From: Methylobacter sp.
Lineage (GTDB): Bacteria; Pseudomonadota; Gammaproteobacteria; Methylococcales; Methylomonadaceae
Assembly: GCF_030680395.1 (NCBI RefSeq)
Contig: NZ_JAUXVR010000009.1
Span: 103,931-167,930, forward strand
Reading direction: 5' to 3'
DNA length: 64,000 nucleotides
Part shown: in pieces, positions 5,572 through 27,033 of the stretch
How positions within the stretch are numbered: position 1 is the first letter of the stretch
Layout of the letters: each line of letters begins with the position of its first letter
Position numbers and translations under genes: made by a program
Notes under the pieces: model-generated
Databases searched by the model: none
Seen by the model: the letters and a program-made list of their open reading frames with translations, nothing else
What the model was told of the DNA's origin: nothing

Positions 5572-6402
5572 TTATCTAAGACCCGATGCCAATGGAGAAT
5601 GGGACACCGAGCCGGCTTCTTCGAACTCCTGCCGAAACTTGTCGAATTCCTTTTTCCAGGACGCTTTGTTGTAGCCCCAATTGCCCTCGTCCAATAGCCG
5701 CTCACCCCGCGCGAATTCCGATTTTACCTGGGCTAGAGCATCCTCCTCGCCCTCCTCCCAAAGTGCCTGGGCATAAAACAGGTGGTTGAGCGGATGCCCG
5801 GGATGTTCCTTGACGGCCTTTTCCAGCAGTTCCAGCGCCTTGTCGATATCGCCTATGCCATTGGGCCAGGCTGGGGCTTTGAGATACAGCGCCCCCAAAA
5901 GGCGCAGCGGCCCGCCGTCGTCAATGTCGGGACTCAAGGCCAGCGCTTGTTTCATCTCGCTTTCCAGCCGGCCAAGGTTCTCCACGGCCAGGGTGATGTG
6001 TTCGCGCACCGCCAGGCCAAGATTCGCCGCCAAATAATAATGCACCGCCCCGTTGCCGCCCTGCGCCAAGGCGGTTTCAGCAAAGCGAACGCCTTCGGCG
6101 GCCAGTTTTTCGCGTTTTTCCTGGCTGGCTTCGCGTTCGGCCAGATGCAAACAGATCCGGCTGCCCAACGCGGTACGGCGTACGGCCGGATCCTGAGTGT
6201 CGCGCAAGACATTCAGTGCGCAAGCCAGGGTATGGGTATCACTTAAGGGGCCTAGCTGATTTTGTCCGGCAACCAGCATGTCAGCCGTCTGCTTGGGACA
6301 CTCGAAAAGCAGGTCCGACTGAACTTGGTCGTGCTGGAGGCTGGCACAGCCCGACAGAAAGGCCAGCATCGAAACGACAGGAAGAAATCGTGCGCTGTTC
6401 AA
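5572..6402 (-). CDS. bstC: BstC, TPR-type sterol transport lipoprotein
   Basis: This is the last gene of the sdmB-sdmA-bstA-bstB-bstC run. I place the start at a TTG ending at 6402, nine bases after GAGGGGG and just before the bstB stop codon; this gives a 276-residue protein with signal peptide and lipobox (LAFLSGC). Longer frames read into bstB and lack a signal peptide. The rest is helical and TPR-like, with repeated Ala/Leu-rich pairs such as ALELLEKAVKEHPGHPLNHLFYAQ (given in part). In Methylococcus, BstC is a helical-repeat protein that binds 4-methylsterols and is thought to act at the outer membrane. The assignment rests mainly on gene order and fold. Confidence 0.75.
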   Translation of the reverse strand: MNSARFLPVVSMLAFLSGCASLQHDQVQSDLLFECPKQTADMLVAGQNQLGPLSDTHTLACALNVLRDTQDPAVRRTALGSRICLHLAEREASQEKREKLAAEGVRFAETALAQGGNGAVHYYLAANLGLAVREHITLAVENLGRLESEMKQALALSPDIDDGGPLRLLGALYLKAPAWPNGIGDIDKALELLEKAVKEHPGHPLNHLFYAQALWEEGEEDALAQVKSEFARGERLLDEGNWGYNKASWKKEFDKFRQEFEEAGSVSHSPLASGLR

Positions 6403-6406
6403 AGTC

Positions 6407-7246
6407 TTATTCCCCCTCAATCCACAGTTTGACCATAGGCTCGAACACGGCCGTGTCCACACTGGCGAAAGATTCCACTCCGAACACATCGCATAGCTTT
6501 TTGCCTTCGGCATCGGCACACATCCCCTCCAGCGCCTTGCTGAATCGGGCGCGTTCTTCCGCAGTTGTGGTAGCGCTGTTGGCCACCACTCCCATCAGCG
6601 GGATTTCCTCGGACGTAAAGACGGCTTCAAGAGGCGTCCCCAAATGAAGCGAGCCGAGTCCGGCGAATTGTTGCTCGTTCAAAATAACGGCGTCCAGCTC
6701 CCCTTTATCCAAAGAGCGCAGCGCGCGAATGGCCTGATTGGATGGTTTTAGGACAAAGAAACCGGCAGGGTCGTATTTTCCGGCAAAAACGATCCTGCCG
6801 ATAAATAATGGCTCTTCCAATGCCGTACCGCCCAAGGTCTTGCCTTTCAGCTCGTCCAGGCTCTTGTACTTGCCCTTCCGGACCATGACCCGGTAACGCT
6901 CGCTGGTACGGCCTTTGATCCTGGGCTGAACCAGCGGTACCAGGTTGTGCTGGTTGCGCAATTCCAAATAGAGGCCCAGGGAGTTGATCGCGAACTTGGG
7001 CTTTTTGCCGGCCATCTGTTTCCTGCATTCGTCCGATTTGGTAGTAAACAGACTGTTGAAGCTGTTCGCCTGCCACTGGCCGACGCGTTCCACCACCCGC
7101 AGCATGGAGTTCATCGCTTCGCTGGCGTCCTTGGCATTAACGGAGCCGCCGGGGTAGCACACCACGATTATTTCGGGATTGGGGGCTGCCCTTACGGCAA
7201 GGGAAATCAACAGGCCGGCAATAATAAGATAAAATTTTCGCATCAT
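6407..7246 (-). CDS. bstB: BstB, periplasmic sterol-binding protein
   Basis: The protein has 279 residues, with a signal peptide at residues 1-20 (LIIAGLLISLAVRA). The body resembles the PhnD/phosphonate-type periplasmic binding protein fold: the N-terminal strand EIIVVCYPGGSVNA, a central RVMVRKGKYKSLDELKGKTLGG segment typical of the domain hinge (shown in part), and a C-terminal helical end. In Methylococcus, BstB of this family binds C-4 methylated sterols in the periplasm. Its ATG overlaps the bstA stop (ATGA, 7243-7246), so it is translationally coupled. It probably hands sterol from BstA to BstC. Four Cys residues may form disulfides. Confidence 0.85.
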   Translation of the reverse strand: MMRKFYLIIAGLLISLAVRAAPNPEIIVVCYPGGSVNAKDASEAMNSMLRVVERVGQWQANSFNSLFTTKSDECRKQMAGKKPKFAINSLGLYLELRNQHNLVPLVQPRIKGRTSERYRVMVRKGKYKSLDELKGKTLGGTALEEPLFIGRIVFAGKYDPAGFFVLKPSNQAIRALRSLDKGELDAVILNEQQFAGLGSLHLGTPLEAVFTSEEIPLMGVVANSATTTAEERARFSKALEGMCADAEGKKLCDVFGVESFASVDTAVFEPMVKLWIEGE

Positions 7247-9957
7247 GGTTTTCTCTTGGAATCAATCAGTTGTCCGATGGCCGGGGCCACGACGAGGGTT
7301 GCGGTCAGGCAGCACAACAGCCCGATGGTGATGCTCACGCCCAGGGAAGACACGCCCCGGTAGTTGGCCAAGGTAATGGCGCCCAGGCCGGCCAATTCGG
7401 TGCCAGCGGCCAGTCCGATCACTTTGCCGGCGGCCAGGCTGACTTGCAGGGGGGTGTGACCTTTCAATTCGCCCCAGCGATAGCTGAACCACACGCCGTA
7501 ATCCACCGCCAGCGCAATCACGAGGGGCAATGCGACGATGTTGGCGTAATTATAGCGAATATCGCCTAGGGCCATCAGCCCCAGCATCCAGCCGCCGCCG
7601 ATCAGCAAAGGTAACGTCGCCAGCGCGAAGCCGCGCACGCTGCGCGTCGCCGCCATAATCCAGAGCAGGCACAACACCAGGGACAATTGCGTGCCACGGG
7701 TGAAACTTTCCACCACAGTCTTGGAAAGCGCCTGGTGCGTGGTCGGAAAGCCGGTCGCTTCCGGCGAGACGCTATACACGTCTTTTATCAATGCATCGAG
7801 ATTGTCGGGATCGTACACGGTTTTTGCCGGAAAGGCGTAGACGGCGATGCTGCCGTCAGCGGCAAAGAAGCGGTCGCGCAGGGCCATTGGCAACTGCTCA
7901 GGGGTGAGGGGCTGGGCCTGCCGCCAGGCGTCGATGACTTTAAGCCCGCTATTCGCTCCGGACAGCAAGGCTCGCAAGAAGCTCTCGCTACGAATCCGGC
8001 CCTGATCGCCATCTGCGGCGAGTTTGTCCGAGATCGATAAAAGTTGTTCGCGCACTTTTTCCAAACTTTCGACCAGGTTGGCATGTCCGGCGGAAAATGC
8101 CTGTTCCTGGGCTTCGTCGATAATAGCGGCGCTGTTTTCCAGCACTGCCTGCAATAACTCGAACGATTTTACCGACAAACCTTCCCGGTCGAGTTCGGCG
8201 ACCTGTCTGGCGTAGTCAGTCCGGGCGAACGACTCGCTAATATTTACGGCCTTGCGGAGACGTTCGTCGGCATCCGCAGGAAATAAGTTGGTCAGCGACT
8301 GCACCTTGGCAACCGTCTTGAGTTTGCCCGCCTCATCGGTGATTCGCCGGGCGTCGGCCATGTCCTTGGCGGTAAAAATGATGACTTCGGATTGGTAGTC
8401 GCTTTCCGCCACCATGCGACGTTGGTAATAGGCGGCCTGGGAATCTTTGGGCAACATGGCCAGCACATCGTAGTCGAACGGGATGGTCATGCCTTTTACT
8501 CCGCCAATGACAGCACTACCCAAAGCCAGGAGGACCAGCACTACCGCAACGGGCTTGGGAAACGCGCCGGTGTGTTTCCATATTCGCGCCGGAACCGGCG
8601 ACGTGCTTAGCGAGGGGATATCTCTCAGCTTGGGCGGCAGCAAGGCGTACAGCGCGGGTTGGACCATCCAGGTGCTGATCAGGATCATCAGCACGCCTTT
8701 GGCCGCCACTACGCCCAGTTCGGCAAAGCCCGGAAAATCCACCGTGGTCAAGGCGCCGAAAATCAGCAGCGAGGCGCCGCCCGCCGTCAATACCGCTATA
8801 AAAGATGAGCCGATGCCGGCCCCTATGGCTTCGATCAAGGGCTTGCCTGCACGGCGCTCATCGGCGATGCGCGAGGAGGTGAAAATGCCGTAGTCCGCTC
8901 CCAGACCGAACAGGATGGCGATGAAGGCGGCGGTGATCAGGGTCAGGTGGCCGACGGTGACCAAGGCCAGCCCCAAACTCCACAGCACTCCGAGCCCCAT
9001 CGGGATAAAAATCAGCACGGCCCAGCGCACGCTACGGACCACCAATAAAATCAATGCGACGATCAGCGCGGCGGAAGTAAATACCACGAAGATGATATCC
9101 TTGCGGATATTGACGTACTCCTCGTACTCGATGGCCGGTAATCCGGTCAGGCCCACAGTGGGCGGCGTACGGCCGGCGGCGTTGGCTTGTCCGGCCAGGT
9201 CCTTCGACACCTGCTTGACCTTGTCGATGAAAGGGCCGAGATTCTTGAAATCCCCGGAAGGATTTTTCGGGTGGACGAATAAAAACAGCATTTGCCCGTC
9301 GCGCGAAGCAAAGTAACCGTCGGACATGCCCCCTGCCCCGTTTTTGGCCAGCAGCCGGTTCCAGTCCAATCCGGCTGGCGCTGTTTCTGCGGACAGCCAG
9401 CGCTGCCACTCTTCCAGGAAAAACGCCGCCAGATTCAGGCTTGCTTCGGCGGTTTGCAAGTCGGTATCCGCCCCGCCCAGAGGCGGGTGGTCTTTGCTCC
9501 AATTCAGCGCTTTACGCAGGTTTTCTTCCATCCCGCCGCCCGCCGGAATTGGCTGGTCCGCCATCGCGGCAAGCTTGTCCAGACTCTCGACCGGCATCAG
9601 CAGGTAGGCGTGGTCCAGAAAAAACGTCATGTCGAGACGGGCGGTCGCCTGGTCGATCTCGGGTTCTGTCTGAAGTTTGGCGGCTAGTTCGTTGGCAAAG
9701 GACTCCAGTTCGCTGCGCGGAGCGCCCTCCAGAACCACCATCAGATCCGAAGCAGCACCGAAATTTTTCAAGAAATCGTTGAAGCGCTTCGCCACCGCCG
9801 TATTCTGTGGAAGCAGCGCCTGCCGCGAAGTATGGACCGGGAGCTGCGCCGTTGCCCATCCGGCCAGAATCGACAGCGCCAACGCCATCCCCAAGATCCA
9901 CCAAGGGTTTCGGGCGGCGTATTCGGCGAGCTTGGCAATGCGCTGGGTGATCTTCAT
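7243..9957 (-). CDS. bstA: BstA, RND/MMPL-type inner-membrane sterol transporter
   Basis: The 904-residue protein has the duplicated RND layout: TM1 near residues 18-38, a large periplasmic domain to about 270, five TM segments to about 440, then the same again (TM near 470, periplasmic domain to about 740, TM bundle to the end). The motif region GLGADYGIFTSSRI in the first half corresponds to the MMPL/HpnN group of lipid exporters, and ALAVDYGVWFSYRW is its second-half counterpart. It lies between sdmA and bstB. The known role of BstA in Methylococcus is export of 4-methylsterol from the inner membrane. The DNA here is visibly GC-rich (about 60% in a sampled 60-base line). Confidence 0.88.
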   Translation of the reverse strand: MKITQRIAKLAEYAARNPWWILGMALALSILAGWATAQLPVHTSRQALLPQNTAVAKRFNDFLKNFGAASDLMVVLEGAPRSELESFANELAAKLQTEPEIDQATARLDMTFFLDHAYLLMPVESLDKLAAMADQPIPAGGGMEENLRKALNWSKDHPPLGGADTDLQTAEASLNLAAFFLEEWQRWLSAETAPAGLDWNRLLAKNGAGGMSDGYFASRDGQMLFLFVHPKNPSGDFKNLGPFIDKVKQVSKDLAGQANAAGRTPPTVGLTGLPAIEYEEYVNIRKDIIFVVFTSAALIVALILLVVRSVRWAVLIFIPMGLGVLWSLGLALVTVGHLTLITAAFIAILFGLGADYGIFTSSRIADERRAGKPLIEAIGAGIGSSFIAVLTAGGASLLIFGALTTVDFPGFAELGVVAAKGVLMILISTWMVQPALYALLPPKLRDIPSLSTSPVPARIWKHTGAFPKPVAVVLVLLALGSAVIGGVKGMTIPFDYDVLAMLPKDSQAAYYQRRMVAESDYQSEVIIFTAKDMADARRITDEAGKLKTVAKVQSLTNLFPADADERLRKAVNISESFARTDYARQVAELDREGLSVKSFELLQAVLENSAAIIDEAQEQAFSAGHANLVESLEKVREQLLSISDKLAADGDQGRIRSESFLRALLSGANSGLKVIDAWRQAQPLTPEQLPMALRDRFFAADGSIAVYAFPAKTVYDPDNLDALIKDVYSVSPEATGFPTTHQALSKTVVESFTRGTQLSLVLCLLWIMAATRSVRGFALATLPLLIGGGWMLGLMALGDIRYNYANIVALPLVIALAVDYGVWFSYRWGELKGHTPLQVSLAAGKVIGLAAGTELAGLGAITLANYRGVSSLGVSITIGLLCCLTATLVVAPAIGQLIDSKRKP

Positions 9958-9976: not shown

Positions 9977-11083
9977 TCAATTCGCGTAAGCTGCTTGAGT
10001 GTTTTTGGCGCGCTCCAAATAGCCCTCCCATTTTCGTGCAGTCAAGCGCTGGAACATCGGCACCACGGGATTGAGTTCGATGGGCGGCGCATCCCAGTAG
10101 GTTTCGTAGCTTAACTGTTCCGCTTCCAGAGCAATGCCGTCTTCGTCGAGTATGGGCTTGAACACCAAGGGCTTGGCAATATTCAACACCAATTGGGTCA
10201 GCCACTTCGGGGTTTTCATGGCAATCAGCGGAATCTTCAGGGCATCGAAATAAAACAGGAAGAACACCCGCGTGGTCTGCTCGTTGATCGGCAGCATAAA
10301 CGACCAATTCTTGATGCTGTCGCCGGTGTTGGTCCATTGGTAGGGATACTCGTAGCACAACTCGATGGAGCGGGTATTGACCCGGTTGCGGTCAACGAAA
10401 ATTCCGGAAATCCGGCCGCCGGCCATATAAGCATCATAAGTCAGGTAAACCCTGTCGTCATCGGCCTCGTGGTGGGTCAGTTTGGCATCGATGAAAGGCT
10501 TGTATTTACGGTGCAGGAAGGCATGGGAGAAATCGCAGATATTGTCGATCACCATGGAATGATGCGTGCGCCACGTGTAATCCACGGCAAAGCTGGCCCA
10601 GGTGTTATCGCCGGTGAGTTCGGGTATTTCCGGTATTTTATGCTCGAAGGCAAGTTCCGGATCGCCTGGGAACAACCAGATCAGGCCATAGCGGACTTGT
10701 ACGGGATAAGTCCGCAATTGCTTCTTGATCAGCGGGTTGCCAAAGCTGTCATGGGAGTAGTCCTCCAGCCAGCCTTCCCTATTGTAGGCCCAGCCATGAT
10801 AGGCGCAACGCAAAGTGCACTTGTCCACCGCGCCATGGGTCAGCTTTAGCTGGCGATGTACGCAGAGGTTGCGCATGGCCGCGAGTTCGCCGTCTTCGCC
10901 GCGATAAAGGGCAATGGAGGTATTCCAGAAAATTACCTCTTTCACCTGGCCTTTTTTTACTGCGCTATCGTATTCCACTACATACCAGCGGTCAGGGTCC
11001 ATTCCAGCGGCGCGGGCCTTTTGCCGGGAATTTTTAGCTTCCGCAAAGGAAGGAGGTGGGGATTTCATCTGCACGCTGTTCAT
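9977..11083 (-). CDS. sdmA: SdmA, Rieske-type sterol C-4 demethylase oxygenase
   Basis: The 368-residue protein carries the Rieske [2Fe-2S] ligands Cys74-x-His76 and Cys93-x2-His96 (NLCVHRQLK and CAYHGWAY) and the mononuclear iron motif Asn181-x2-Asp184-x2-His187-x3-His191. This is the oxygenase class to which Methylococcus SdmA belongs. SdmA oxidises one C-4 methyl of 4,4-dimethylsterols to the acid so that SdmB can decarboxylate it, leaving 4-monomethylsterols. It needs a separate electron donor, not encoded next to it; the ferredoxin domain fused to CYP51 nearby is one candidate. The gene lies 19 bases upstream of bstA. Confidence 0.88.
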   Translation of the reverse strand: MNSVQMKSPPPSFAEAKNSRQKARAAGMDPDRWYVVEYDSAVKKGQVKEVIFWNTSIALYRGEDGELAAMRNLCVHRQLKLTHGAVDKCTLRCAYHGWAYNREGWLEDYSHDSFGNPLIKKQLRTYPVQVRYGLIWLFPGDPELAFEHKIPEIPELTGDNTWASFAVDYTWRTHHSMVIDNICDFSHAFLHRKYKPFIDAKLTHHEADDDRVYLTYDAYMAGGRISGIFVDRNRVNTRSIELCYEYPYQWTNTGDSIKNWSFMLPINEQTTRVFFLFYFDALKIPLIAMKTPKWLTQLVLNIAKPLVFKPILDEDGIALEAEQLSYETYWDAPPIELNPVVPMFQRLTARKWEGYLERAKNTQAAYAN

Positions 11084-11123: not shown

Positions 11124-12140
11124 TTACTTAGCAAGGGTGATCAAACCTCTGCGTACGAAATCGTCATAGGCTTCCTGTACTGCCTGGGACAATTGGGTGG
11201 GCTGGTAGCCCAATTCCTGTTTCGCCTTGTCGTGGTCAGCCCTGCGCCGCATCTGAAGCAAGCGCACTGCGCCCGGCGTGAAGCGTCTGGGCAGATTGGG
11301 GAATGCCCGATACCAGGTCTTGTCGGCCACTTCGGCCAGCATGGACATCAGGTATGGCGGCAGCCGCAGCCTCGGCAACGGACGGCCGGTAGTTTCCTTA
11401 AACAGCGCCAGCAGATCATCCACGCTGGCATAGGCGGTGCTGAAGATGTACTTCTGCCCGGAACGCCCATGCCGCATGGCTAATATATGGCCTTCGGCGA
11501 TATCGCGGCCGGATACGAACTCGAAGCCTCCGGGAATGTAAGCGCGCAGAGCGCCGTGAGCGTAATCGATCAGTACGCGGCCCATGCGCGAAGGCACGTA
11601 ATCATGCGGCCCGATGATCGCGCAGGAGGTGGCGACGACCACATTCAGGCCGTTGGCGTACGCCTTGAGGCACTCATGCTCGGTAAGATGCTTGGTAAAA
11701 CCGTAAGGCAGATGGCGTTCGAAGGGATAGAACGGCATGTCCTCGTGGCTGGAACGATCCGGCTCGTAGCCGGTGGCGCTCAGCGATCCCGACACAACAA
11801 TCTTGTCGACGCTGTGGCGCTCGGCCGCCTGGAGGATATGGATGGTACCGCGGACGTTGGTATCGAATATTTCGCGCTTATGGGCCGCATTACCTTCGAT
11901 GGTCGAAACCAGAGCGGCGCAATGATAAACGCGGGCGCAGCCGCGCACGGCGGTGGACACTTCTTCGCTGTTGCGCAGGTCGGCAAACACACGCTCCACG
12001 TCGAGACCGTCCAATGCTCCGTTGTCGCGCTCGGCTCGCATCATCACTCGCACTTGCTCGCCCTCTTTGAGCAGGCGGCGAACCAGATTAGCGCCAAGGT
12101 GTCCGGTGGCGCCTGTAACGAGCGTGATTCCAGCGCTCAT
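11124..12140 (-). CDS. sdmB: SdmB, NAD(P)-dependent sterol C-4 decarboxylase/reductase
   Basis: This is an extended short-chain dehydrogenase of the 3-beta-HSD/epimerase family. It has the nucleotide-binding motif GATGHLG near the start and a catalytic YGFTK (Tyr146, Lys150 counted from MSAGITLV). The ATG ending at 12140 is preferred; a TTG nine codons upstream is possible, and neither has a strong ribosome binding site. Length about 338 residues. In Methylococcus, SdmB completes C-4 demethylation by oxidising the 3-hydroxyl, decarboxylating C-4 and restoring the 3-hydroxyl. It heads the GC-rich sdm-bst module; 12141-12373 upstream is AT-rich and probably holds its promoter, though I could not place one. 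Confidence 0.85.
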   Translation of the reverse strand: MSAGITLVTGATGHLGANLVRRLLKEGEQVRVMMRAERDNGALDGLDVERVFADLRNSEEVSTAVRGCARVYHCAALVSTIEGNAAHKREIFDTNVRGTIHILQAAERHSVDKIVVSGSLSATGYEPDRSSHEDMPFYPFERHLPYGFTKHLTEHECLKAYANGLNVVVATSCAIIGPHDYVPSRMGRVLIDYAHGALRAYIPGGFEFVSGRDIAEGHILAMRHGRSGQKYIFSTAYASVDDLLALFKETTGRPLPRLRLPPYLMSMLAEVADKTWYRAFPNLPRRFTPGAVRLLQMRRRADHDKAKQELGYQPTQLSQAVQEAYDDFVRRGLITLAK

Positions 12141-12373
12141 TGCGTCAGCCCGAGATAGCGCCACCAACGAGAGAGGCGACAGCTCAAGCCGGGGAATTCA
12201 GATGCCGTAGGGCTTGTTTTAAAATCGGTTTGGCAAAATATCATAGGCTCTGCTTCATTCTGTTCTTTGCAACTTCTTTGACCATCTGTTTGTAAGTTCA
12301 TTTTCTAAACCTTTATCAGGCAACAAGCAGTTTATGGCTTTAGCAGGATAACCTTGTCCGTAAACAGCACGAC

Positions 12374-13816
12374 TTAAGGCCGTTGAATATTTGTGCCATA
12401 ACCGGAAAAAGCAAAATATTTTATTTTTCCGAGATAATAATAAAAAAGCACTGCCAACGGAACTTCGTTTTTTAACAATGGCTTAATAATGGCAACTGCA
12501 TCCGAAAGAAGTTTTATGGCCTTGGGTAAATTTGCAATGTTATGACGCACTAAATTGCCGGCGCCGAATGCTGTCAAAAAACAGAATTGTTTCATCAATG
12601 TGTAATGGTTCCTGTTCAGGCCGGCCAACATGGCGATCGACTCTTGCGCATTAGTACCGCCGCGTTGCAGATATTTGGACACCGCCGTTTTAAGTAAATC
12701 GTTAGACATGACACCATAGAGTGCGTTAGCAAGAATATTTAGATTGGCATTGGCTTTTTGTCTTTCCCGGTAATAGGCTTCGATTTTTTCGTGAATCAAA
12801 TCGGTATTATTGAAATCAGGCATGGCCAGTAAATGCGCACTCAATATTTGGATGTCCGAAAATACCGCTGTCAATCCGCCGCCCGTTAAGGGATGGCGCA
12901 TATTCAAAGCATCTCCCAGCAACACGGCGCCTTTACGGATGATGGGTTTTGCCGCCATGTAATGGTTGGGCATGACCTTAAATCCGCCTTCCTGCAAGGC
13001 TTGTTGATAGCTGTTAAGCATACAATCGGGAATATAAGGCGTCACATTGACATCCAAATGGGTTTGTATCAACTGTTTTCTAGGAAGCTGTTCACTCGGA
13101 AAATCAATTAAAATCCTGACTTCATAACTGGAAATCGGATAACAAATGAACGGCGTCGGCCCTGATAAAAACACATGACCATGTTTTGGAAAAGGTGTTT
13201 CACAATCTTTTAAAATCAAGCCGATAAAGTAAGACGTTACGGTTTTTTCATTATTGCTGAGATGCTCTCTAAAGTTTGAAAAGAAGCCGTCGCTGGTAAT
13301 GGTCAGAGGCGCATGTATGGTCTTGATCTTGGATGTGAGCGAGTCCCGGTAACTGATGCCGGTAATCTCGTTCCGTTCGTTTTCCTGAAGCTGCAATGCT
13401 TTGCCATGAATTTGCGTAACCGATTTATTTTGCAGCGCAGAAGCCCTGATTTGCTGCAAAAACCGGCCATTGTGCAAACCCATTCCTTTACAATGGTTAG
13501 GATAAGGAATGGTGATTCTCTCGCCGCCTTGCAGGATTGCGTAGCCTTCAACCGGCTGCGCATCAAAACCATCCAGTAAATGCCCAAGCCCCATCTGCTT
13601 AAGCGACAACACCGCTCCAGGTTGCAACAATTCACCGACAATGCGCTTTTTTTCCTCAAAGGAATGATCGACTAACGCGATCCTAATGCCTTTGGGGGCA
13701 AGATAAGCGGCGATGCTTGCACCCGCCATTCCTGCACCAATAATGCAAATGTCGAACCCGGACTCCGCCGAGCTACCTGATGCACATACTTTAAACTGCG
13801 GTGATTGTTTTATCAT
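12374..13816 (-). CDS. sqmo: Squalene monooxygenase (squalene epoxidase)
   Basis: The 480-residue flavoprotein has the FAD dinucleotide motif Gly27-x-Gly29-x2-Gly32 (IIGAGMAGASIAAYLA), followed by VGELLQPGAVLSLKQMGL, typical of squalene epoxidases, and the second FAD motif LLGDALNMRHPLTGGG near residues 300-320. It converts squalene to 2,3-oxidosqualene using O2 and a reductase. Its ATG overlaps the oxidosqualene cyclase stop (13813-13816), so the substrate maker and user are translationally coupled. A hydrophobic C-terminal part (residues about 430-470) probably attaches it to the membrane. Confidence 0.92.
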   Translation of the reverse strand: MIKQSPQFKVCASGSSAESGFDICIIGAGMAGASIAAYLAPKGIRIALVDHSFEEKKRIVGELLQPGAVLSLKQMGLGHLLDGFDAQPVEGYAILQGGERITIPYPNHCKGMGLHNGRFLQQIRASALQNKSVTQIHGKALQLQENERNEITGISYRDSLTSKIKTIHAPLTITSDGFFSNFREHLSNNEKTVTSYFIGLILKDCETPFPKHGHVFLSGPTPFICYPISSYEVRILIDFPSEQLPRKQLIQTHLDVNVTPYIPDCMLNSYQQALQEGGFKVMPNHYMAAKPIIRKGAVLLGDALNMRHPLTGGGLTAVFSDIQILSAHLLAMPDFNNTDLIHEKIEAYYRERQKANANLNILANALYGVMSNDLLKTAVSKYLQRGGTNAQESIAMLAGLNRNHYTLMKQFCFLTAFGAGNLVRHNIANLPKAIKLLSDAVAIIKPLLKNEVPLAVLFYYYLGKIKYFAFSGYGTNIQRP

Positions 13817-16056
13817 GCCTGAACGTCCATTTTAAAGTGTCGATTCAACGCCCAGATAGGAAAGATATTCCTATAATTGGCGTAAGTTATCATGCAGTTG
13901 TAATTAAAAACGCCGGAAATACTTTCCTGAGGCCAATCGCCAATGTCGGTCTGTCTGTTCAGCAATACGTTGATACCCGTTTCGGTAACCGTCTTATCGC
14001 CAAAATCAGCGGCCATCAGTGCCAGCAACGCCCAGGCCGTATTAATGACTTGAGACGAATCAGCCTCGGTGTAAGTCAACGTCGAACAGGATTTGAACGT
14101 CTCTCCCCAACCGCCATCCGCTTTTTGCTTGCCGACTAAAAAGGTACAGGCCTTGCTAAGGCTGGCCGTTAAGAGGGTGGCGTTATAGTAGCCTTTACCT
14201 TTGGCCTTACTGAGCGCTTCCACGCCAAACCAGGTTGCATAGGTGAAACAGACCGCCCAGCCGCCGTACCAGGAGCCATCCGATTTTTGTTGCTTAAGGA
14301 TAAAATCGATTCCCGCACTGATGGCTTTGCGTATTTCGCTATTTTTATAGGCCGGATAAGTTTCCTGAACTTCCATTAATGAAATAACGCAAGCCGCAGT
14401 ACATTCCGTCCAGGAGCAATCGATCATAATGTCGGCAAAGACTTCGGATGGGTTGAGCTTTTCCAGCCATTTTGGTGCACGTGTCAGTTCATACGTTGCC
14501 CAGCCGCCATCGCTATTTTGATAAGAAAGGAGTGTCTCTACGGCCTGTTTGATGCGCTGATCGTCAATCGCCGGTTTAACCAGCCCGGAATGATGAACGG
14601 CGAAAGTGGCGCTTAGGCCTTCGGCTGTGCAATCGGCAACCGGCCAGCCATTTTCTGCCGTTGAAAAAGGCCAACTGCCGATCATCGGATGACGGAAGAA
14701 CTCGGCATGCGTCGGGTGTTCGGCCTTGATTTGCGACAGCTCGATAAACCGATAGCTTTTTGCAATCGTCGCAGGAAACAGCTTGCCCAGGTCGCTTTCC
14801 AGCATAGCGCGGGTTGCAAAAGCGGTATCCCAAAGCTGCGAGCCATTGTAGCCGTTCATTTTCATGCCATCTTCGGCCACCCATAAATAATCAAACCAGC
14901 GCGCCGCATGCTTTTTAAATTGCTCGGAATCTTTGCCGTAAGCATGCCAGATGCAAATGGAATTAATGGCTTGATTGACGGGGCCTATATTGATGTAGTT
15001 GGTTTGCTCATCTTCGGCATTGAGGTATTTTAAAATATAGTCCGTGGACTTCTTTCTTAACCAGGTGGATTTGAACTTTTCATAGCTATTGGTGAAAAAG
15101 TTCATCCACTTCAGCACCGGAGACGGCGTCGTGTAACAGTCTTTTTCGCACACGGCATTGCGTTGTTTCGGCCAGTCAATGGAGGCGAAATCCTCGTTAT
15201 AAATTTCCTCTCTTAAGGCCAGAATCAGTTCATTTTCGGGCGCTTTAATCCGTTGCGCATAGCAATAGGCCATCGGCAAGTAGACCATGCGGGTATGACA
15301 CCAGTAACGCCAGGGATGGACCGGCAGCCACCGGGGGAACAACCACATTTCAGGAAACAGGCTGTTAAAGCCTTGCCAGTCGTAACAATTCAGCACCGCC
15401 AGATAAAACTTTCCCCAGGAGGGAATGCCGGTCGCACCGCCATTGTTTTTGATCCACGTCCTGGCCTGGACCAATTGCCGATGATTTTTATCGACGCCAA
15501 GAAGGCGCAATGACACGTATTGCATGACGGTGCCGAACATCGTCGATTCGCCCTCGATATGCATGCCCCAACCGGCATCTTTATTTTGATGATTGAATAA
15601 ATAAAGCTTCATCATTTCCCGGTGCGCTTTGGGAAACGGTGTGTCTGAAATATAAGAGGCGATAAGCAGGCCGGGCAAAAGAAATAGCGGGCCGCCGTAA
15701 TCACCCGGCCAATGACCGTCTTCACTTTGCAAATAAGAGTAGTAGTTCATTCCCTTGATGAGCGCATCGATGACTTTTTGCTCATAGGGACTCTCTAACT
15801 GCGGTATTTGTCCGGTAAATTTCTGGAACTTCGTGTCAGTGGCTGCATTTCTGAAAACCTTGTCGCCGGAGTTGGGATTGCCGGATTTATCAAACTGAAA
15901 ATCTTTAGCAAACTGCGCAATGTCTTGCTCTGTAATATTATCGACGTTTTGCAAATGCGCATCGATATTGCTTGAGCCGGGCTTGAACGCCCAGACTTGC
16001 CGTCCGTTATCAGTGAGTAGTTGCCAGTTTTTCCAACCAGATTTTATATTCAGCAT
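13813..16056 (-). CDS. osc: Oxidosqualene cyclase (lanosterol synthase type)
   Basis: The 747-residue triterpene cyclase has several QW repeats (such as QKADGGWGE, QNSDGGWATYE, QKSDGSWYGGW) and the catalytic DCTAE motif with Asp475. DCTAE rather than DxDD marks an oxidosqualene, not squalene, cyclase. Product-determining positions are Val473 (lanosterol-type; cycloartenol synthases have Ile), Tyr403 in GYNGSQLWDTAF (as in cycloartenol synthases) and Asn469. With Val473, lanosterol is the expected product. It lies 77 bases after the NTF2-like gene. It acts on the cytoplasmic membrane. Confidence 0.93.
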   Translation of the reverse strand: MLNIKSGWKNWQLLTDNGRQVWAFKPGSSNIDAHLQNVDNITEQDIAQFAKDFQFDKSGNPNSGDKVFRNAATDTKFQKFTGQIPQLESPYEQKVIDALIKGMNYYSYLQSEDGHWPGDYGGPLFLLPGLLIASYISDTPFPKAHREMMKLYLFNHQNKDAGWGMHIEGESTMFGTVMQYVSLRLLGVDKNHRQLVQARTWIKNNGGATGIPSWGKFYLAVLNCYDWQGFNSLFPEMWLFPRWLPVHPWRYWCHTRMVYLPMAYCYAQRIKAPENELILALREEIYNEDFASIDWPKQRNAVCEKDCYTTPSPVLKWMNFFTNSYEKFKSTWLRKKSTDYILKYLNAEDEQTNYINIGPVNQAINSICIWHAYGKDSEQFKKHAARWFDYLWVAEDGMKMNGYNGSQLWDTAFATRAMLESDLGKLFPATIAKSYRFIELSQIKAEHPTHAEFFRHPMIGSWPFSTAENGWPVADCTAEGLSATFAVHHSGLVKPAIDDQRIKQAVETLLSYQNSDGGWATYELTRAPKWLEKLNPSEVFADIMIDCSWTECTAACVISLMEVQETYPAYKNSEIRKAISAGIDFILKQQKSDGSWYGGWAVCFTYATWFGVEALSKAKGKGYYNATLLTASLSKACTFLVGKQKADGGWGETFKSCSTLTYTEADSSQVINTAWALLALMAADFGDKTVTETGINVLLNRQTDIGDWPQESISGVFNYNCMITYANYRNIFPIWALNRHFKMDVQA

Positions 16057-16133: not shown

Positions 16134-16736
16134 TTATTTATTACACAGAACAATACGTAACATTACTATGAAGCCTTTCATTTTCTTCAATAAACCGGGT
16201 GGTTTGCGTAAACGCTCATGGCCCGGCAGCAATTGCCCTTTGGCCAATTTACCTATTTTTCTTTTCACGGCCGAATCAAGCTTACCGTCAGCGGCTAATT
16301 CGAAAAACAAGGCTTTCACATTGCCTAAATCAAAAAAATCCCGTTGCCATTCCCATTTGTAATTGCCGCCATAGCGAAACCAGGAGCCGCCTATGCCTGC
16401 GACTTCATAATGCGTGCCGTCTTCCCGTAGCGCAGGCGACACCTGTCGCCAGAGGCCAATCACTTCGCCCTGTTTTTCATCGATTAATATGCGGTGGTAC
16501 GGATAGCGCCATTCTTCAAAGCCTTCCATTTGCACACCTAAAGCCCATTCTTCTATCTGTTTACGGCTGCGCGCGACAAACTCTTCATTAGGCCCGATAT
16601 TCCAGCGATATTCTGCGTCGTCGGTATACATCGCGCCCAAATATTTGGGCCAGTTACCTTCTTTTTCAGCGTCACGATTCGCCTGCAACCAACGTTCAAC
16701 CATTTCTTCAAGTTCTGCTCTGGGATATGCAGTCAT
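16134..16736 (-). CDS. NTF2/SnoaL-like protein in the sterol operon, function unknown
   Basis: This 200-residue protein has an N-terminal alpha helix (EMVERWLQANRDAEKEGNW), then YLGAMYTDDAEYRWNIGP, the pattern that opens SnoaL/ketosteroid-isomerase-type NTF2 folds. Aromatic strands follow (EEWRYPYHRILID, VIGLWRQVSP, WFRYGGNYKWEWQRDFF). The basic C-terminal 45 residues (KRKIGKLAKGQLLPGHERLRKPP) could contact membranes. It starts 19 bases after the CYP51-Fd gene and precedes osc, so it should be co-expressed with them. The catalytic Asp of ketosteroid isomerase is not in the expected place (Trp/Asn instead), so isomerase activity is unproven. Roles as sterol isomerase, carrier or accessory protein are open. 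Confidence 0.75.
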   Translation of the reverse strand: MTAYPRAELEEMVERWLQANRDAEKEGNWPKYLGAMYTDDAEYRWNIGPNEEFVARSRKQIEEWALGVQMEGFEEWRYPYHRILIDEKQGEVIGLWRQVSPALREDGTHYEVAGIGGSWFRYGGNYKWEWQRDFFDLGNVKALFFELAADGKLDSAVKRKIGKLAKGQLLPGHERLRKPPGLLKKMKGFIVMLRIVLCNK

Positions 16737-16755: not shown

Positions 16756-18387
16756 TTAGTCGGATTTAATTTTAATTGCCTTGGCCGGACAGTATTTTTC
16801 GGCTTGTTGCGCTTTTTTCAGCAATTCCCGCGGCGGGTTCTCTTGCAAGACGGTGACATTCCCTGCATCGTCTACCTGAAAAAGTTCAGGCGCTTCAGTC
16901 ATGCAGGTTGCATGGCCCTGGCAAAGCTCCCTGTCGATTGTTATTTGAAAACGCGGGCCTGCTTGTACTGTTTCCAGAACGATAGCTGCCGCTGAATCAG
17001 CGGAAGCTTCTTTAACGAGCGAGCGTTTTTTGTATCGGACACGGCAAGGTGATAGCGGTTGCACAACCATCTGGGTGAAGTCGTCCTGATAAGTGTCCTT
17101 GTCGTCGATCAGTTCGAAGGTATAGCGGCGCAGCAGAATGCTGAAAATGGCTTTGAGTTGCAGCATCGCAAAAGCGTTGCCGCTGCACTTGTGTTTACCG
17201 CCGCCGAAGGCAATCCAGCTGAAAGGCGTGGCATCTTCCTGGCGGGTTTCCGAGTAACGGTCGGGATCGAACTTTTCCGGGTCCGGGAAAACATCCGCAA
17301 TGCGATGCGACACGCGTGGCGAGGCACAAACGTATTTTCCGGCTTTTACCGTGTAATCTTTAAACTGAAAGTCTTGCATCACTTTGCGAATTAAAAATAT
17401 CAACGGCGGATGCAGGCGCAGCACCTCCTTAATGACATTTTCCAGTGCCGGAATTTCCCGTAAAGATTGAAAAGTGACCTCGCCATCGGCGCCGAAGTGT
17501 GCATCCAGGTCATTCAATACCTGCGCCAACTGTTCAGGCCGGCGCGCCAATTCCAGCAAGGTCCAGGCAGCTGTCCCTGCTGTTGTATGATGCCCTGCGA
17601 AGATGGTGCCTATTAGCATGCCCGTTATTTCATGAGCGGATAAGCGACTGCCGTCGTCATAGCGGGCATCAATGAGTAATTGAAACGCATCTTCGCTTTT
17701 TTCCGGCTTCTGCGCTCTTTTGGCAATGATGCCGGTGACTAGTTCCTGAAGTCTTGCGCGCGCTTTATCACGGCGGCGAAATACGGGTAACGGCAAATAG
17801 GGAAACACAAAGGCCAGTGGATTTACGCCTTTTTCAAGATCATGATAGATCTTCGCAAACTCTTCATTCAGTTCGTAACGGAACTCATCGCCAAGCAGGC
17901 AGTGGCTGGAGGTATAAATGGTGAGTTCTTTCATAAACTCAAGTAAATCAATTTCGCCGCTATCGCCCCAGCAGGCAATCATTTGTTCGACTTCCCGGAC
18001 GATCACTTGGGCATAGCCGCGCATCGGCTTGTCGCGCAATACCGGCATCAGCATCTTAAGCTGCTGGTCTTTCTTATGCGGCGGCGCGTCAAAAACCACG
18101 CCCTTGCCAAAAATAGGCGTCATGATTTTATACGCCTGGCTTTGATCCAGCTGAGCGTCGGGCGCGCGAAAAAAAGCTTCATTCGCTTCAGGGCCGGTCA
18201 TCAACACCATTTTTTGATGAAACATGCGAAATTCGCCGATTTCTCCCAGTTTATTCCTGAGTCTCATCATGTAGTCGAAAGGATTTTTGCCAAATTCGAG
18301 CATGTGCCCTAAAAGGGGCAATGCGCCGGGCATTTTAGGCGGCTCTTTGCCTGACGAAACGTTTTTTTGGGTATTAGTTGCAGTCAT
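16756..18387 (-). CDS. cyp51: CYP51 sterol 14-alpha-demethylase fused to ferredoxin
   Basis: The protein has 543 residues from the ATG ending at 18387 (MTATNTQKN); a longer frame to 18480 has unusual composition. The P450 part (residues 1 to about 450) shows FAGHHTTAG (oxygen-binding helix), KEVLRLHPP (ExxR) and the heme ligand Cys401 in FGGGKHKCSGNAFA. After an Ala-rich linker near 460-480 comes a small ferredoxin with Cys489, Cys495 and Cys533-Pro; the second cluster position is His492, so a [3Fe-4S] cluster is likely. The same fusion is known from Methylococcus capsulatus. It removes the 14-alpha methyl of lanosterol and heads the cyp51-NTF2-osc-sqmo run. Confidence 0.94.
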   Translation of the reverse strand: MTATNTQKNVSSGKEPPKMPGALPLLGHMLEFGKNPFDYMMRLRNKLGEIGEFRMFHQKMVLMTGPEANEAFFRAPDAQLDQSQAYKIMTPIFGKGVVFDAPPHKKDQQLKMLMPVLRDKPMRGYAQVIVREVEQMIACWGDSGEIDLLEFMKELTIYTSSHCLLGDEFRYELNEEFAKIYHDLEKGVNPLAFVFPYLPLPVFRRRDKARARLQELVTGIIAKRAQKPEKSEDAFQLLIDARYDDGSRLSAHEITGMLIGTIFAGHHTTAGTAAWTLLELARRPEQLAQVLNDLDAHFGADGEVTFQSLREIPALENVIKEVLRLHPPLIFLIRKVMQDFQFKDYTVKAGKYVCASPRVSHRIADVFPDPEKFDPDRYSETRQEDATPFSWIAFGGGKHKCSGNAFAMLQLKAIFSILLRRYTFELIDDKDTYQDDFTQMVVQPLSPCRVRYKKRSLVKEASADSAAAIVLETVQAGPRFQITIDRELCQGHATCMTEAPELFQVDDAGNVTVLQENPPRELLKKAQQAEKYCPAKAIKIKSD

Positions 18388-18597
18388 AGCTCGCTCGATC
18401 TTGATGTATTTGTGCATTAAGGAACGCTGACGCCATGAGTTCCAATTTCCTCGGAAAGCATTAGCATTTGAACTCAACAATAAACCCCATTAAATTTATA
18501 TTCAATGAATCATGAGAAATTTCCTCTTTACACGCCAGGTAGCGCACGAAAAAAACCTGTCGATGGCGAAAGATTTCAATGAATAGAGTGGCAATTC

Positions 18598-19860
18598 TCA
18601 CCCCGCCTTTTCCATCCTTCTCATCTCGACTGGCGAACCCCTTCCTTTCGAGGAAACCTTGTCGTACACCTCATCGAAAGCTTGCCGGCAATACGGCAAC
18701 CGCTCCCGCAACAGGTCATAGCCGGCATGATCGAACATCATCCTGAAACCTTCCCTGCTCATGAAAGTTCTTGCATACAAGGCTTGGTAGCCCTGGTGTT
18801 CGATGACGAATTTTCCCAGCAACGGCAGGGCGACGGCATTATCGAAGCCTTTCTTGCCCGGCGTGCCATAGGCGCCGATATCCACGTACATTTCGTCCAC
18901 TAAGCCGTCCTCAGTCCTGAAAGGATGTACAAAGCCCCGCTGTCCGCCGTTATCCTTGATCGCCATCGGCGAAAGCCATAACGGATATAACCGGAAATGC
19001 GCGTCGAAATACTCAATAGACTGTTTCAGATGCCGGATCGGCATGAGCATGTCCTGAATCACATGAAATTTTTCCCTGAGCCGTTGGGTGGTTTGCGTTT
19101 CCGTGTATTTCAATAATTCGATCCGGGGAGGCACGGCCCAGCCCAGCAATGCCCTGAATATCGGATGGTTTCCGAACGGAATGATTTCCTCCATGGCCCA
19201 GAAATAACCCCGGGTATGTCTGTGATAATAATCCCGCACCGGCACATATTCGACGCCCGGCTCTCTTCGCTCCAGGTAGGTTTGGACATGTTTGTAAAAC
19301 CACGGCTTGTACCATCGCCCGATGGCGTTCAAAGATCCCGGGCCTACGGCATCGACGAAATTGCCGACCATGATGACCGCCCGATCGCAGCCGTAAACCA
19401 GTCCTTCGACGAAATCGTTGTTTTTGGTATCGCGAGAAGTATGCTCGAAAACGCTGACCATACTATCAAGGGTATAGACAGGCCGGTAGTGAAGCCGGAC
19501 ATACTTTTTGACCGGAATAATTTTCAATTCGGCAGCCACCAGAAAGCCTAGGGTACCGTGGCTCCACGGAATCTGGTAAAAGAGATCGGGATTTTCCGAA
19601 GGAGTGCATTTCAGCAGTTTGCCTTCCGCCGTCACGATCTCGAAGGCTTCGCAAATGTGCTGGAACAGCCCGTATTTATGGCTGCTGGTTTCCACGCCGA
19701 ATCCCATGATCAAACCGCCTACCGTCAAACTATCCAGTTCCGGCACCACCGGCAGCGTCCAACCCCGGGATATCAGGCTGCGCGAAATCTGGCCCATGTT
19801 CGCCAGCGGCTCCACCCGAACAATTCCACGATGTTCGTCGATTTCAAGCATGTCGTACAT
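18598..19860 (-). CDS. dhcr24: DHCR24/DWF1-like delta-24 sterol reductase, 5'-truncated
   Basis: The 420 residues align to DHCR24/DWF1 flavoproteins from about residue 130 of those proteins: RVEPLANMGQISRSL, PELDSLTVGGLIMGFG, SSHKYGLFQHICEAFE, IPWSHGTLGFLVAAELKII, YYHRHTRGYFW and HVIQDMLMPI are all family motifs. The family reduces the C-24 double bond of sterol side chains using FAD and NADPH. The N-terminal part, including the first half of the PCMH-type FAD domain, is absent. An in-frame TGA lies six codons before the first ATG, and the bases beyond read as part of a different gene on the other strand. The enzyme is therefore probably inactive or altered, although the remaining frame is intact. 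Confidence 0.8.
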   Translation of the reverse strand: MYDMLEIDEHRGIVRVEPLANMGQISRSLISRGWTLPVVPELDSLTVGGLIMGFGVETSSHKYGLFQHICEAFEIVTAEGKLLKCTPSENPDLFYQIPWSHGTLGFLVAAELKIIPVKKYVRLHYRPVYTLDSMVSVFEHTSRDTKNNDFVEGLVYGCDRAVIMVGNFVDAVGPGSLNAIGRWYKPWFYKHVQTYLERREPGVEYVPVRDYYHRHTRGYFWAMEEIIPFGNHPIFRALLGWAVPPRIELLKYTETQTTQRLREKFHVIQDMLMPIRHLKQSIEYFDAHFRLYPLWLSPMAIKDNGGQRGFVHPFRTEDGLVDEMYVDIGAYGTPGKKGFDNAVALPLLGKFVIEHQGYQALYARTFMSREGFRMMFDHAGYDLLRERLPYCRQAFDEVYDKVSSKGRGSPVEMRRMEKAG

Positions 19861-20422: not shown

Positions 20423-20468
20423 TGGAGCCAATGGCGAGAATCGAACTCGCGACCTACTGATTACGAAT
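20423..20468 (-). repeat. Left attachment-site copy (3' part of tRNA-Thr)
   Basis: Forty-six bases match 26958-27003, the 3' half of the intact tRNA-Thr(CGT), with three mismatches. Two of these (A/G and C/T in the T-arm stem) compensate each other so the stem still pairs. The last 18 bases (gacctactgattacgaat) are identical and are the likely crossover core. Past the core the sequence leaves the tRNA, so this is not a functional tRNA. Confidence 0.85.
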
Positions 20469-20749
20469 GCGAAGTTTTACTATATTCAGTAACAAACCAC
20501 AGCAAACTATAATAATAAAATCAATAACTTGAGTAATTTTAATTATTGCTGATTATTGCCATTTACTGCAATTATTTATAGTTAATTGCAGTAAAAATGC
20601 AGAGCAATTATAATCATAACCCTAGAAACAAAGCGGCCTCGCAGGTGCTACCAACACCAAACAAGGCCTTACCAATAACTTAATTCTGGGTTAAGCAATG
20701 GCTGAATACATCATATCAAAAAGCCGGTTGTTATCCCATAGGGGCAATC

Positions 20750-21817
20750 ATGGCAAACATTACCGAACGAACCATAAAAGATGGAAGCAAGCGCTATACC
20801 GTCATTATCAGGATTAAAGGTTGCGAATCCCGAACCAAAACATTTAGACGGCTAACCGATGCCAAGAAATGGATAGCGAAAACAGAATCAGAAATCAGGG
20901 ACGGCAAACAGCTTATTCCCCGAGCCGCCTTAAAGAAAACCCTTGGTGACGCAATAGAGCGCTATATAAGCGAGGTTCTACCAGAAAAGCCAGCATTACA
21001 GGCCGACCAAACAACACAGCTCAATTGGTTCAAGGCTGAGTTAGGCAATATACCATTAGCCAGCATCACTACACCTTTAATAGTCCAGTGCAGGGATAAG
21101 CTAAATACTGAAATGGGACAGCGCGGTAAAGTTCGCAGTCCTGCGACTGTTGCGCGATTCCTGGCGGCCTTAAGTGCGATGTTTAGCCATTGCATATCTG
21201 AATGGGAATGGACGCAAGACAACCCCGTAAAGCGCGTAAAAAAGCCCAAGGTATCAAATGACCGCGTTCGGTTTTTGGATGATGACGAACGGCAACGATT
21301 TTTAAAAACCTGCCAAGAATCCAGTAACAAATTGCTTTATTTGTGCGTCATTTTGGCAATGTCCACCGGCATGAGGCAGGCCGAATTAATGGAATTGACA
21401 TGGAAAGATGTAGACATCAAAACAGGTTTTCTACTACTCAATAAAACAAAGAACGGAGAGAAGCGGCGAGTCCCATTGTCTGGGCATGGTTTAGAGCTGT
21501 TACGCGAGCATGCCAAGGTTCGGCGGCTTGATACCTCATTATTGTTCCCTGGCAAAAAAACCCCGTTAAATCCTATCGATTTAAGGCGACCTTTTGAAAA
21601 CGCAGTAAAACTGGCTGAGATAACGGACTTTCATTGGCATGACTTACGCCATTGCTGTGCGTCATATTTGCTTATGAACGGCGCAAGCTTGCCGGAAATA
21701 GCCAAAATTCTGGGGCATAAAACTTTAGCTATGGTGATGAGGTACAGCCACATGAGCGACGACCACGCAGGCGGTATTGTTGCTTCGATGAATGAAAAGA
21801 TTTTCGGTGGCTTGTGA
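20750..21817 (+). CDS. int: Tyrosine recombinase (integrase)
   Basis: The 355-residue protein has the full catalytic set: Arg209 (TGMRQAELMELTW), His297-x2-Arg300 (HDLRHCC), His323 (LGHKTLAMV) and Tyr332 (RYSHMS). The N-terminus (about 60 residues, KDGSKRYTVIIRIKG) is an arm-type DNA-binding domain, followed by a core-binding helical domain (about 65-165). It would integrate and excise the element at the tRNA-Thr site. The gene starts about 280 bases inside the left attachment site and overlaps the next gene by four bases. Confidence 0.93.
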   Translation: MANITERTIKDGSKRYTVIIRIKGCESRTKTFRRLTDAKKWIAKTESEIRDGKQLIPRAALKKTLGDAIERYISEVLPEKPALQADQTTQLNWFKAELGNIPLASITTPLIVQCRDKLNTEMGQRGKVRSPATVARFLAALSAMFSHCISEWEWTQDNPVKRVKKPKVSNDRVRFLDDDERQRFLKTCQESSNKLLYLCVILAMSTGMRQAELMELTWKDVDIKTGFLLLNKTKNGEKRRVPLSGHGLELLREHAKVRRLDTSLLFPGKKTPLNPIDLRRPFENAVKLAEITDFHWHDLRHCCASYLLMNGASLPEIAKILGHKTLAMVMRYSHMSDDHAGGIVASMNEKIFGGL

Positions 21818-22815
21818 TGGCTGACATTAACTGGACTGATTGGCTAAACCGAGAGCATATAACCCTTGATGATGCTTTGTTGTTATCAATGGAGGAAAAC
21901 CCGGATAACCCCGGCATTAATCAAGATTATGACGAAACAAAATATATCGAATTACGCGACAAAGCCGAGCATTGGATTTTAATAAGCAGAGAGTTACAAG
22001 CAATAGGAGAGCTTAACAACGGTTCGCAGGAATTTAAAAACATTAACCCGCTTAGTTTTTTTAAGCTGGCGCGGCTGAATGGCTGGTTTTTACCAAAGCC
22101 GGTTAATGATTTTTTAGACATCCACCAAAAACAGCAAATCGTTACCTGGAGCGGTGATATACAAGCACTTGAACCACTCACAGCCGAACAAAGACAGGCT
22201 TACAACAAGCTGGCGGCCTGGACATGGGTTGATGCTATTTATATTTTACAAGGCTTCAAGCCATGCCCACAGATAAGCACTGAACAGGTGCGCTCACACT
22301 TTCCTAATGATGTTGAATTCTTCACTAAATCAATATGGCTAGGTAATATCGGCAAAAAAATAATCGAAGCAGGACAAAGGACATTTATTGGTTCACCGGC
22401 AAGATGGGAAGATTTCTGGCAAGACAAGCTGAAAGCAGAACAGCAAGCCGAAGCCGTGGGCAATGCTGGTGCGGTTGATGGAGTAGCCATAAAACCGGCA
22501 AGTGCAAAGAGCATTAAAGCCAATAGCAACGAATTTTCATTTTCAGGGTTGCTTCATATACCTAGCGGTGTAGATGATTGGTTTGAAGTTATTGATGTTA
22601 TGACAAAGGCTTTTTATGCTAACAAAAATGCAATGCCGACTAAAGCCCAAGCATGGGCGGAATTGTGTACAAACACGCCAATTGGTTACGGTATAGAGTC
22701 CATGGGAAATCAATCTTTGACGATGCCGGGAGTCGCCAAAGAATTTAATAAGCGTTCTTTTGGTAGAAGATGGGGTAAATACACAGCCAAATCTAACCCT
22801 TTCAAGCCAAACTAA
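21814..22815 (+). CDS. Element protein of unknown function, 333 aa
   Basis: The start is GTG 21814 or ATG 21817, overlapping the integrase stop, so it is probably coupled to int. The protein is acidic and soluble, with no membrane segment. The first 200 residues are Trp-rich (DINWTDWLN, AAWTWVDAIYILQGF, RWEDFWQDKL). A variable middle (about 205-240) joins a C-terminal domain of about 80 residues ending in FGRRWGKYTAKSNPF. Such a basic, Trp-containing end is common among element-borne proteins of unknown function, but I recognise no named family. Confidence 0.7.
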   Translation: MMADINWTDWLNREHITLDDALLLSMEENPDNPGINQDYDETKYIELRDKAEHWILISRELQAIGELNNGSQEFKNINPLSFFKLARLNGWFLPKPVNDFLDIHQKQQIVTWSGDIQALEPLTAEQRQAYNKLAAWTWVDAIYILQGFKPCPQISTEQVRSHFPNDVEFFTKSIWLGNIGKKIIEAGQRTFIGSPARWEDFWQDKLKAEQQAEAVGNAGAVDGVAIKPASAKSIKANSNEFSFSGLLHIPSGVDDWFEVIDVMTKAFYANKNAMPTKAQAWAELCTNTPIGYGIESMGNQSLTMPGVAKEFNKRSFGRRWGKYTAKSNPFKPN

Positions 22816-22863
22816 GCCACTTCATACCCGCCACCGTTTCAGAGACGGCAATAATCAGAAACT

Positions 22864-22933
22864 ACCCCCAACAGAGCCGAAAAGCTTTGGAAATCCTGCA
22901 AACACAGGAACACAAAATAAACCCATTGGGGGT
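22864..22933 (+). promoter_or_regulatory. Hairpin that can hide the AlpA-like gene's ribosome binding site
   Basis: ACCCCCAA (22864-22871) is exactly complementary to TTGGGGGT (22926-22933), and a smaller CCTG/CAGG hairpin lies between. The GGGGG of the right arm is the only ribosome binding site candidate for ATG 22939, six bases away. Pairing would block it, suggesting translational control. Confidence 0.4.
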
Positions 22934-22938
22934 GTTAA

Positions 22939-23136
22939 ATGCCTACATTATCAACAGTAAATCAGTTCACCGCAAAACAACCCGCCTTCACTACAGGCGG
23001 AATCCGCAGCTTAATTTTCAATGAGCATCAAAACGGCCTTGCTAAGTCCGGCGCGATTGTTCGCATTGGCCGCAAAGTTTTGATTGATGAAACCAAGTTC
23101 TTTGCTTGGATTGAGTCACAAAACAAGGCGGCCTAA
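22939..23136 (+). CDS. AlpA/excisionase-like small DNA-binding protein
   Basis: The protein has 65 residues. It has the MerR-like small helix-turn-helix layout of element AlpA/Xis proteins: TVNQFTAKQPAFTTGGIRSLIF, then GLAKSGAIVRIGRKVLIDETKFFAWIES (both shown in part). The G-x-I-V-R-I-G-R-K-V-L-I-D segment is the beta wing. Such proteins direct excision or regulate the integrase. The stop codon is directly followed by the next start, so the two are co-translated. Confidence 0.75.
   Translation: MPTLSTVNQFTAKQPAFTTGGIRSLIFNEHQNGLAKSGAIVRIGRKVLIDETKFFAWIESQNKAA

Positions 23137-26957: not shown

Positions 26958-27033
<76 letters not shown>

Follow-up and report, generated by a model that had tools for sequence, protein, structure and literature searches.

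The closest described relative of the gene considered here encodes 8,14-Bsr (bacterial 8,14-sterol reductase), the name given by Lee, Giner and Welander (J Bacteriol, May 2026; PMC13277303) to H156_RS0106965, a Methylococcus capsulatus Texas protein that belongs to the NTF2 superfamily. In Escherichia coli, 8,14-Bsr together with a CYP51-ferredoxin fusion turns all detectable 4,4-dimethylcholesta-8,14,24-trienol into 4,4-dimethylcholesta-8(14),24-dienol; this conversion has been shown for the M. capsulatus protein and two other homologues, and homologues from three phyla work in E. coli (PMC13277303). The present analysis concerns a gene of this type, bsr, in a 64,000-nucleotide stretch of Methylobacter sp. 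DNA (contig NZ_JAUXVR010000009.1, positions 103,931 to 167,930; hereafter the window). The encoded protein is very probably the methanotroph 8,14-Bsr, whose net reaction is a reduction combined with a shift of the remaining double bond to 8(14). This identity would explain the removal of the Delta14 bond in methanotrophs without ERG24.

Over 198 amino acids, the window protein shares 71% identity with the homologue of M. capsulatus Texas on an H156DRAFT contig (L080). As the sole match in its genome (G051), L080 is presumably the published H156_RS0106965. In the 12.6 kb around L080, none of the seven neighbour queries finds a match, which agrees with the statement that bsr is unlinked in M. 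capsulatus (PMC13277303). Six residues of the published protein, Y37, Y43, Y78, Y80, D133 and D136, have been tested by mutation: the D133A, Y43F, Y43A, Y37A and Y78A mutants were impaired, and the D136A, Y80F, Y80A, Y37F and Y78F mutants were not (PMC13277303). All six are kept at identical positions in the window protein, where the motif YLGAMYTDDAEYRWNIGP occupies residues 32–49. They are likewise kept in all 80 loci used for locus analyses (of 110 matching in a scan of genome contigs) and in the 14-row alignment A2, among homologues down to 58% identity. From orthology, the six residues, the fold, the operon position and co-occurrence with CYP51, we infer that the window protein would carry out the M. 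capsulatus reaction.

The preliminary description of this DNA had guessed at a sterol substrate, and the homology to 8,14-Bsr bears this out. It had also suggested that the protein supplies a missing double-bond isomerisation; a double-bond step is indeed supplied, but it is a reduction with a bond shift and not an isomerisation alone (PMC13277303). Its statement that no sterol role was described for this type of protein has been overtaken by the same paper, so that the function is already published and the guess, although right, is no longer new. The other options it offered, a carrier or a binder of a pathway enzyme, are not needed given the published catalysis. Among the matches listed in the literature search, judged by titles and abstract openings, only PMC13277303 describes the NTF2 protein of the sterol operon.

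In the window's open reading frame list, bsr is an ATG-started frame of 200 amino acids (16736–16134, minus strand), and a ribosome-binding-site-like AGAGAGG lies upstream of its start codon. The cyp51-ferredoxin frame ends at 16756, which leaves 19 bases between the two genes, and osc, the cyclase gene, starts at 16056, 77 bases after bsr; the length, the spacing and the position before osc given in the preliminary description are thus confirmed. Judging by its unbroken homologues, the frame is a real gene. When 251 genomes of the order Methylococcales were searched, bsr was unbroken in 91, including the window's own, with the others at 64–97% identity. The exceptions are a copy truncated where its contig stops (G211) and a two-frame copy of 59% identity in G079, where Bsr is spread at 2982–3591 of L099 over two frames covering residues 2–34 and 31–200. 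The latter can be explained either by a frameshift or by an assembly error. Two Methylococcus-type frames that stay open for 562–564 codons raised the possibility that Bsr is fused to another gene; this was set aside, the matched part being the usual 198 residues and long open frames being expected in GC-rich DNA.

The NTF2/SnoaL assignment is weak by sequence and firm by predicted fold. The only Pfam matches to Bsr up to an E-value of 1 are of the SnoaL type, and they lie below the gathering cut-offs (SnoaL_2, 18.8 bits against 27; SnoaL_4, 15.4 bits against 24); NCBIfam gives no match up to the same E-value. The AlphaFold2 model has an NTF2 fold, as the preliminary description had anticipated, with a pLDDT (predicted local distance difference test) of 93. 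The listed fold-search matches for which a function is stated include isomerases, cyclases and hydrolases. A sequence search of solved structures with Bsr alone returned four sequences up to an E-value of 10 (best 1e-4, over a short stretch), designed and other proteins, with nothing usable; the profile from alignment A2 returned seven, none NTF2-like by name. Membership of the ERG24 membrane sterol-reductase family was rejected on the SnoaL-type Pfam matches and the NTF2 fold. The C-terminal 45 residues, described earlier as basic, do carry a net charge of +12 (residues 156–200), compared with −10 over residues 1–150. Helices are predicted at 155–165 and 182–198; the hydrophobic moment is 0.18–0.31 in three 18-residue windows between 179 and 200, compared with 0.54 for the N-terminal helix, and an amphipathic character of the C-terminal helix is weakly supported.

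Bsr and CYP51 have nearly the same distribution. Among 61 relatives, Bsr was found in 14, and a near-full-length CYP51-ferredoxin (61–100% identity) in the identical 14; the other P450 matches in these genomes reach 36% identity or less. Across the 251 genomes of the order, with thresholds of 1e-150 for CYP51-ferredoxin and 1e-90 for the cyclase, Bsr was detected in 93, CYP51-ferredoxin in 94 and the cyclase in 95, the association in these counts being uncorrected for ancestry. Homologues residing mostly in genomes without sterol genes, which the preliminary description named as the outcome that would speak against its guess, were not found within the order: 92 of the 93 carriers have CYP51-ferredoxin and 90 have the cyclase. 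Two genomes, G047 (locus L098; 99% complete) and G219 (95% complete), contain a full-length cyclase and no match for either CYP51-ferredoxin or Bsr. Their sterol pathway is predicted to stop before C-14 demethylation; since there would then be no Delta14 bond to remove, they are natural negative controls and indicate that the presence of Bsr tracks that of CYP51 and not sterol synthesis in general.

The same linkage can be noted in the 80 loci, where the fetched stretch contains CYP51-ferredoxin in 72 cases and the cyclase in 54. CYP51 is co-directional with Bsr in 65 loci, 60 of them with 13–31 bases between the match ends, and opposite in seven; in three of the eight loci without CYP51, Bsr lies within 660 bases of the contig start. 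The CYP51-ferredoxin matches in relatives are 57–97% identical and mostly full length. In G006, cyp51 and bsr are separated by about 650 bases; when this interval was translated and inspected by eye, it showed no gene and some repeat-like sequence. Metagenome-assembled genomes titled Crenothrix polyspora (L023, L047, L049) have bsr, cyp51-ferredoxin and osc, whereas a C. polyspora genome was used as a non-producer in PMC13277303; the names of the assemblies may be wrong, or the strains may differ.

With the function published, the remaining interest lies in the mechanism, that is, in the source of electrons in a fold without a recognisable cofactor site and in the possible convergence of two unrelated proteins on one cation. 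The substrate would be 4,4-dimethylcholesta-8,14,24-trienol, a Delta8,14 sterol made by CYP51, and two hydrogens would be added over its conjugated diene in the 1,4 sense, so that a single double bond, at 8(14), remains. This net addition of two hydrogens calls for an electron donor. In the order that we propose, Y43 and D133 would first protonate C-15, the faces of the Y37 and Y78 aromatic rings would hold the resulting allylic cation over C14-C8-C9, and a hydride, probably from NAD(P)H, would then be placed on C-9. The basic C-terminal helix would probably rest on the membrane or on CYP51. This order, the reverse of the published one, is argued by analogy, and we give it a little less than an even chance. 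It would explain why mutation could not separate reduction from the bond shift, and also why an aromatic ring, but no hydroxyl, is required at Y37 and Y78. The analogy is with ERG24, an enzyme for this very diene: it is reported to protonate C15 and then to transfer a hydride to C14, with Tyr257 and Asp374 predicted to be catalytic (PMC12489058). Possibly, although we would not favour it at even odds, an NTF2 fold without a nucleotide-binding domain hydrogenates an unactivated diene in an ionic 1,4 manner, using a Tyr/Asp acid that evolved independently of the ERG24 pair and passing through an identical allylic cation; the carbon that receives the hydride would then be the only difference between the two enzymes (C-9, leading to 8(14), versus C-14, leading to Delta8).

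Several points weigh against this account. Evidence for the reaction comes from the M. capsulatus protein and other homologues and extends to the window protein by inference; the published activity was obtained with intact E. coli, where a partner from the host may contribute to the reduction; and no cofactor site is recognisable in the sequence, either according to PMC13277303 or in the Pfam and NCBIfam scans. The proton-first order is based on the ERG24 analogy and on a reading of the published mutants, whereas PMC13277303 proposes hydride transfer to C-15 first. As for distribution, Bsr occurs without CYP51-ferredoxin in G136 (72% complete), and CYP51 without Bsr in G134 (83% complete) and G188 (98% complete). 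In both of the latter CYP51 is cut by a contig end, the match stopping at base 3 of the contig in G134 and extending to base 4128 of a 4129-base contig in G188. In G164, no more than 64 bases separate Bsr from the end of its contig, and a linked osc would fall outside it; the osc matches of G119 are fragmented, and that of G189, where neither CYP51 nor Bsr was found, begins at base 6 of its contig. Contig ends or genome incompleteness could account for all exceptions but G047 and G219.

The strongest alternative, which we consider somewhat less likely than the proton-first order, is that the same enzyme acts in the published order, with hydride delivered to C-15 and the allylic anion then protonated at C-9. 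In its favour, the order was proposed by the discoverers, who obtained no mutant capable of reduction only (PMC13277303). Against it, a diene without activation accepts hydride poorly, and ERG24 is reported to protonate C15 of the same diene first (PMC12489058). Moreover, loss of D133 or of the Y43 hydroxyl impairs function, and phenylalanine is tolerated at Y37 and Y78 whereas alanine is not; the pattern suggests an acid and the stabilisation of a cation, although the authors read the Y37/Y78 part of it as pi-stacking. It is improbable that the NTF2 protein merely shifts or activates double bonds while a separate, generally present reductase supplies the hydrogens. The whole-cell assay, the missing nucleotide-binding domain and the isomerases, cyclases and hydrolases among the fold matches would all suit this explanation; against it stand the activity of homologues from three phyla in E. 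coli, the accumulation of the trienol in E. coli with CYP51 alone and the fact that the Results of PMC13277303 mention no shifted but unreduced intermediate. Finally, a non-catalytic sterol carrier or CYP51 scaffold, to which the tight linkage with CYP51-ferredoxin and the basic C-terminal helix might point, is disfavoured by the published expression data and highly improbable, given that single pocket mutations reduce function and that the product differs chemically from that of CYP51 (PMC13277303).

The genes around bsr (Table 1) are transcribed in the order FAD_binding_4 gene, cyp51-ferredoxin, bsr, osc, squalene epoxidase, sdmB-like, sdmA-like, bstA, bstB and bstC. For CYP51-ferredoxin, the open reading frame list gives a TTG start at 18480, and a later in-frame start, 18396, was adopted.

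Table 1. Features of the sterol gene cluster in the window.
Feature	Position	Strand	Evidence
8,14-Bsr orthologue (probable), 200 amino acids, NTF2/SnoaL fold	16134..16736	-	Homology, pocket residues, predicted fold; family function from PMC13277303
CYP51 (C-14 demethylase) fused to ferredoxin, presumed substrate maker	16756..18396	-	Pfam p450 and 4Fe-4S
Oxidosqualene cyclase	13813..16056	-	TIGR01787 676 bits, cut-off 323
Squalene epoxidase	12374..13816	-	Pfam SE 260 bits
SdmB-like reductase of C-4 demethylation	11124..12167	-	Best NCBIfam SdmB 305 bits, below cut-off 600
SdmA-like Rieske oxygenase of C-4 demethylation	9977..11083	-	Best NCBIfam SdmA 367 bits, below cut-off 600; Pfam Rieske
BstA sterol transporter	7243..9957	-	NCBIfam BstA 1699 bits, cut-off 1400
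BstB periplasmic sterol-binding protein	6407..7246	-	NCBIfam BstB 499 bits, cut-off 350
BstC outer-membrane sterol transporter part	5572..6519	-	NCBIfam BstC 443 bits, cut-off 350
FAD_binding_4 oxidoreductase without the N-terminal part present in relatives	18598..19860	-	Pfam match begins at profile position 55 of 139

The FAD_binding_4 gene (18598–19860) is presumably DHCR24-like, and related genes occur near bsr in 10 of the 80 loci. Its frame closes five codons upstream in the window and stays open for 115–149 codons upstream in the three relatives read (L017, L031, L046); the side-chain double bond may be kept in the window organism. An 18-base direct repeat is present at 20451 and, as a copy, at 26986 inside a tRNA-Thr gene (26958–27033). 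Between the repeats lie an integrase (20750–21817) and a D5_N/Toprim primase-like protein (23538–25850); the region 20451–27003 is probably a tRNA-inserted mobile element adjoining the shortened FAD gene.

Among 398 genomes drawn evenly from the phylum, two match at E-values up to 1e-10, the window's own (G000) and, outside the order, G287, a member of genus g155; alphaproteobacterial and mycobacterial homologues have also been reported (PMC13277303). Five of the six g155 genomes have Bsr, and the core of the locus in all five consists of CYP51-ferredoxin, a short-chain dehydrogenase, Bsr and a membrane-type protein of 276 residues; three of the five stretches also encode, close to this core, a hydroxylase, a 3beta-HSD-like protein and an aldehyde dehydrogenase. 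None of the six genomes has a cyclase match; there is no positive control among them, and the same query finds cyclases at 34–37% identity elsewhere in the order. The presence of Bsr without a cyclase match suggests that it follows CYP51 and not de novo synthesis, and the gene set fits a putative action on sterol taken up from outside. The 276-residue protein stands beside Bsr in all five stretches (8059–8889 in L096; L104–L107) and has no Pfam or NCBIfam match. We take it to resemble the plant cycloeucalenol cycloisomerase, a likeness that, if real, would suggest processing of plant-type sterols.

The C-24 'Bsr' of Myxococcota shares the abbreviation and is also a bacterial sterol reductase, but belongs to the geranylgeranyl-reductase family and acts on the side chain (PMC12004948). 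Delta5-3-ketosteroid isomerase, a member of the NTF2 superfamily, has the fold in common with the window protein; however, the published comparison reports no correspondence between the active-site residues of the isomerase and of 8,14-Bsr (PMC13277303), and the 8,14-Bsr reaction is reductive and needs an electron donor, in keeping with the earlier expectation that the chemistry would differ from that of the isomerase. ERG24, the canonical sterol C-14 reductase, acts on the same 8,14-diene, and a Tyr/Asp pair is implicated in both enzymes (PMC13277303, PMC12489058), whereas ERG24 is an unrelated, NADPH-using membrane protein with a Delta8 product. The 8,14-Bsr of M. capsulatus Texas agrees with the window protein in sequence, in the six residues, in the fold and in its CYP51-ferredoxin partner; it differs in gene context, the M. 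capsulatus bsr being unlinked and that of the window lying in one operon with cyp51-ferredoxin, osc and the squalene epoxidase gene.
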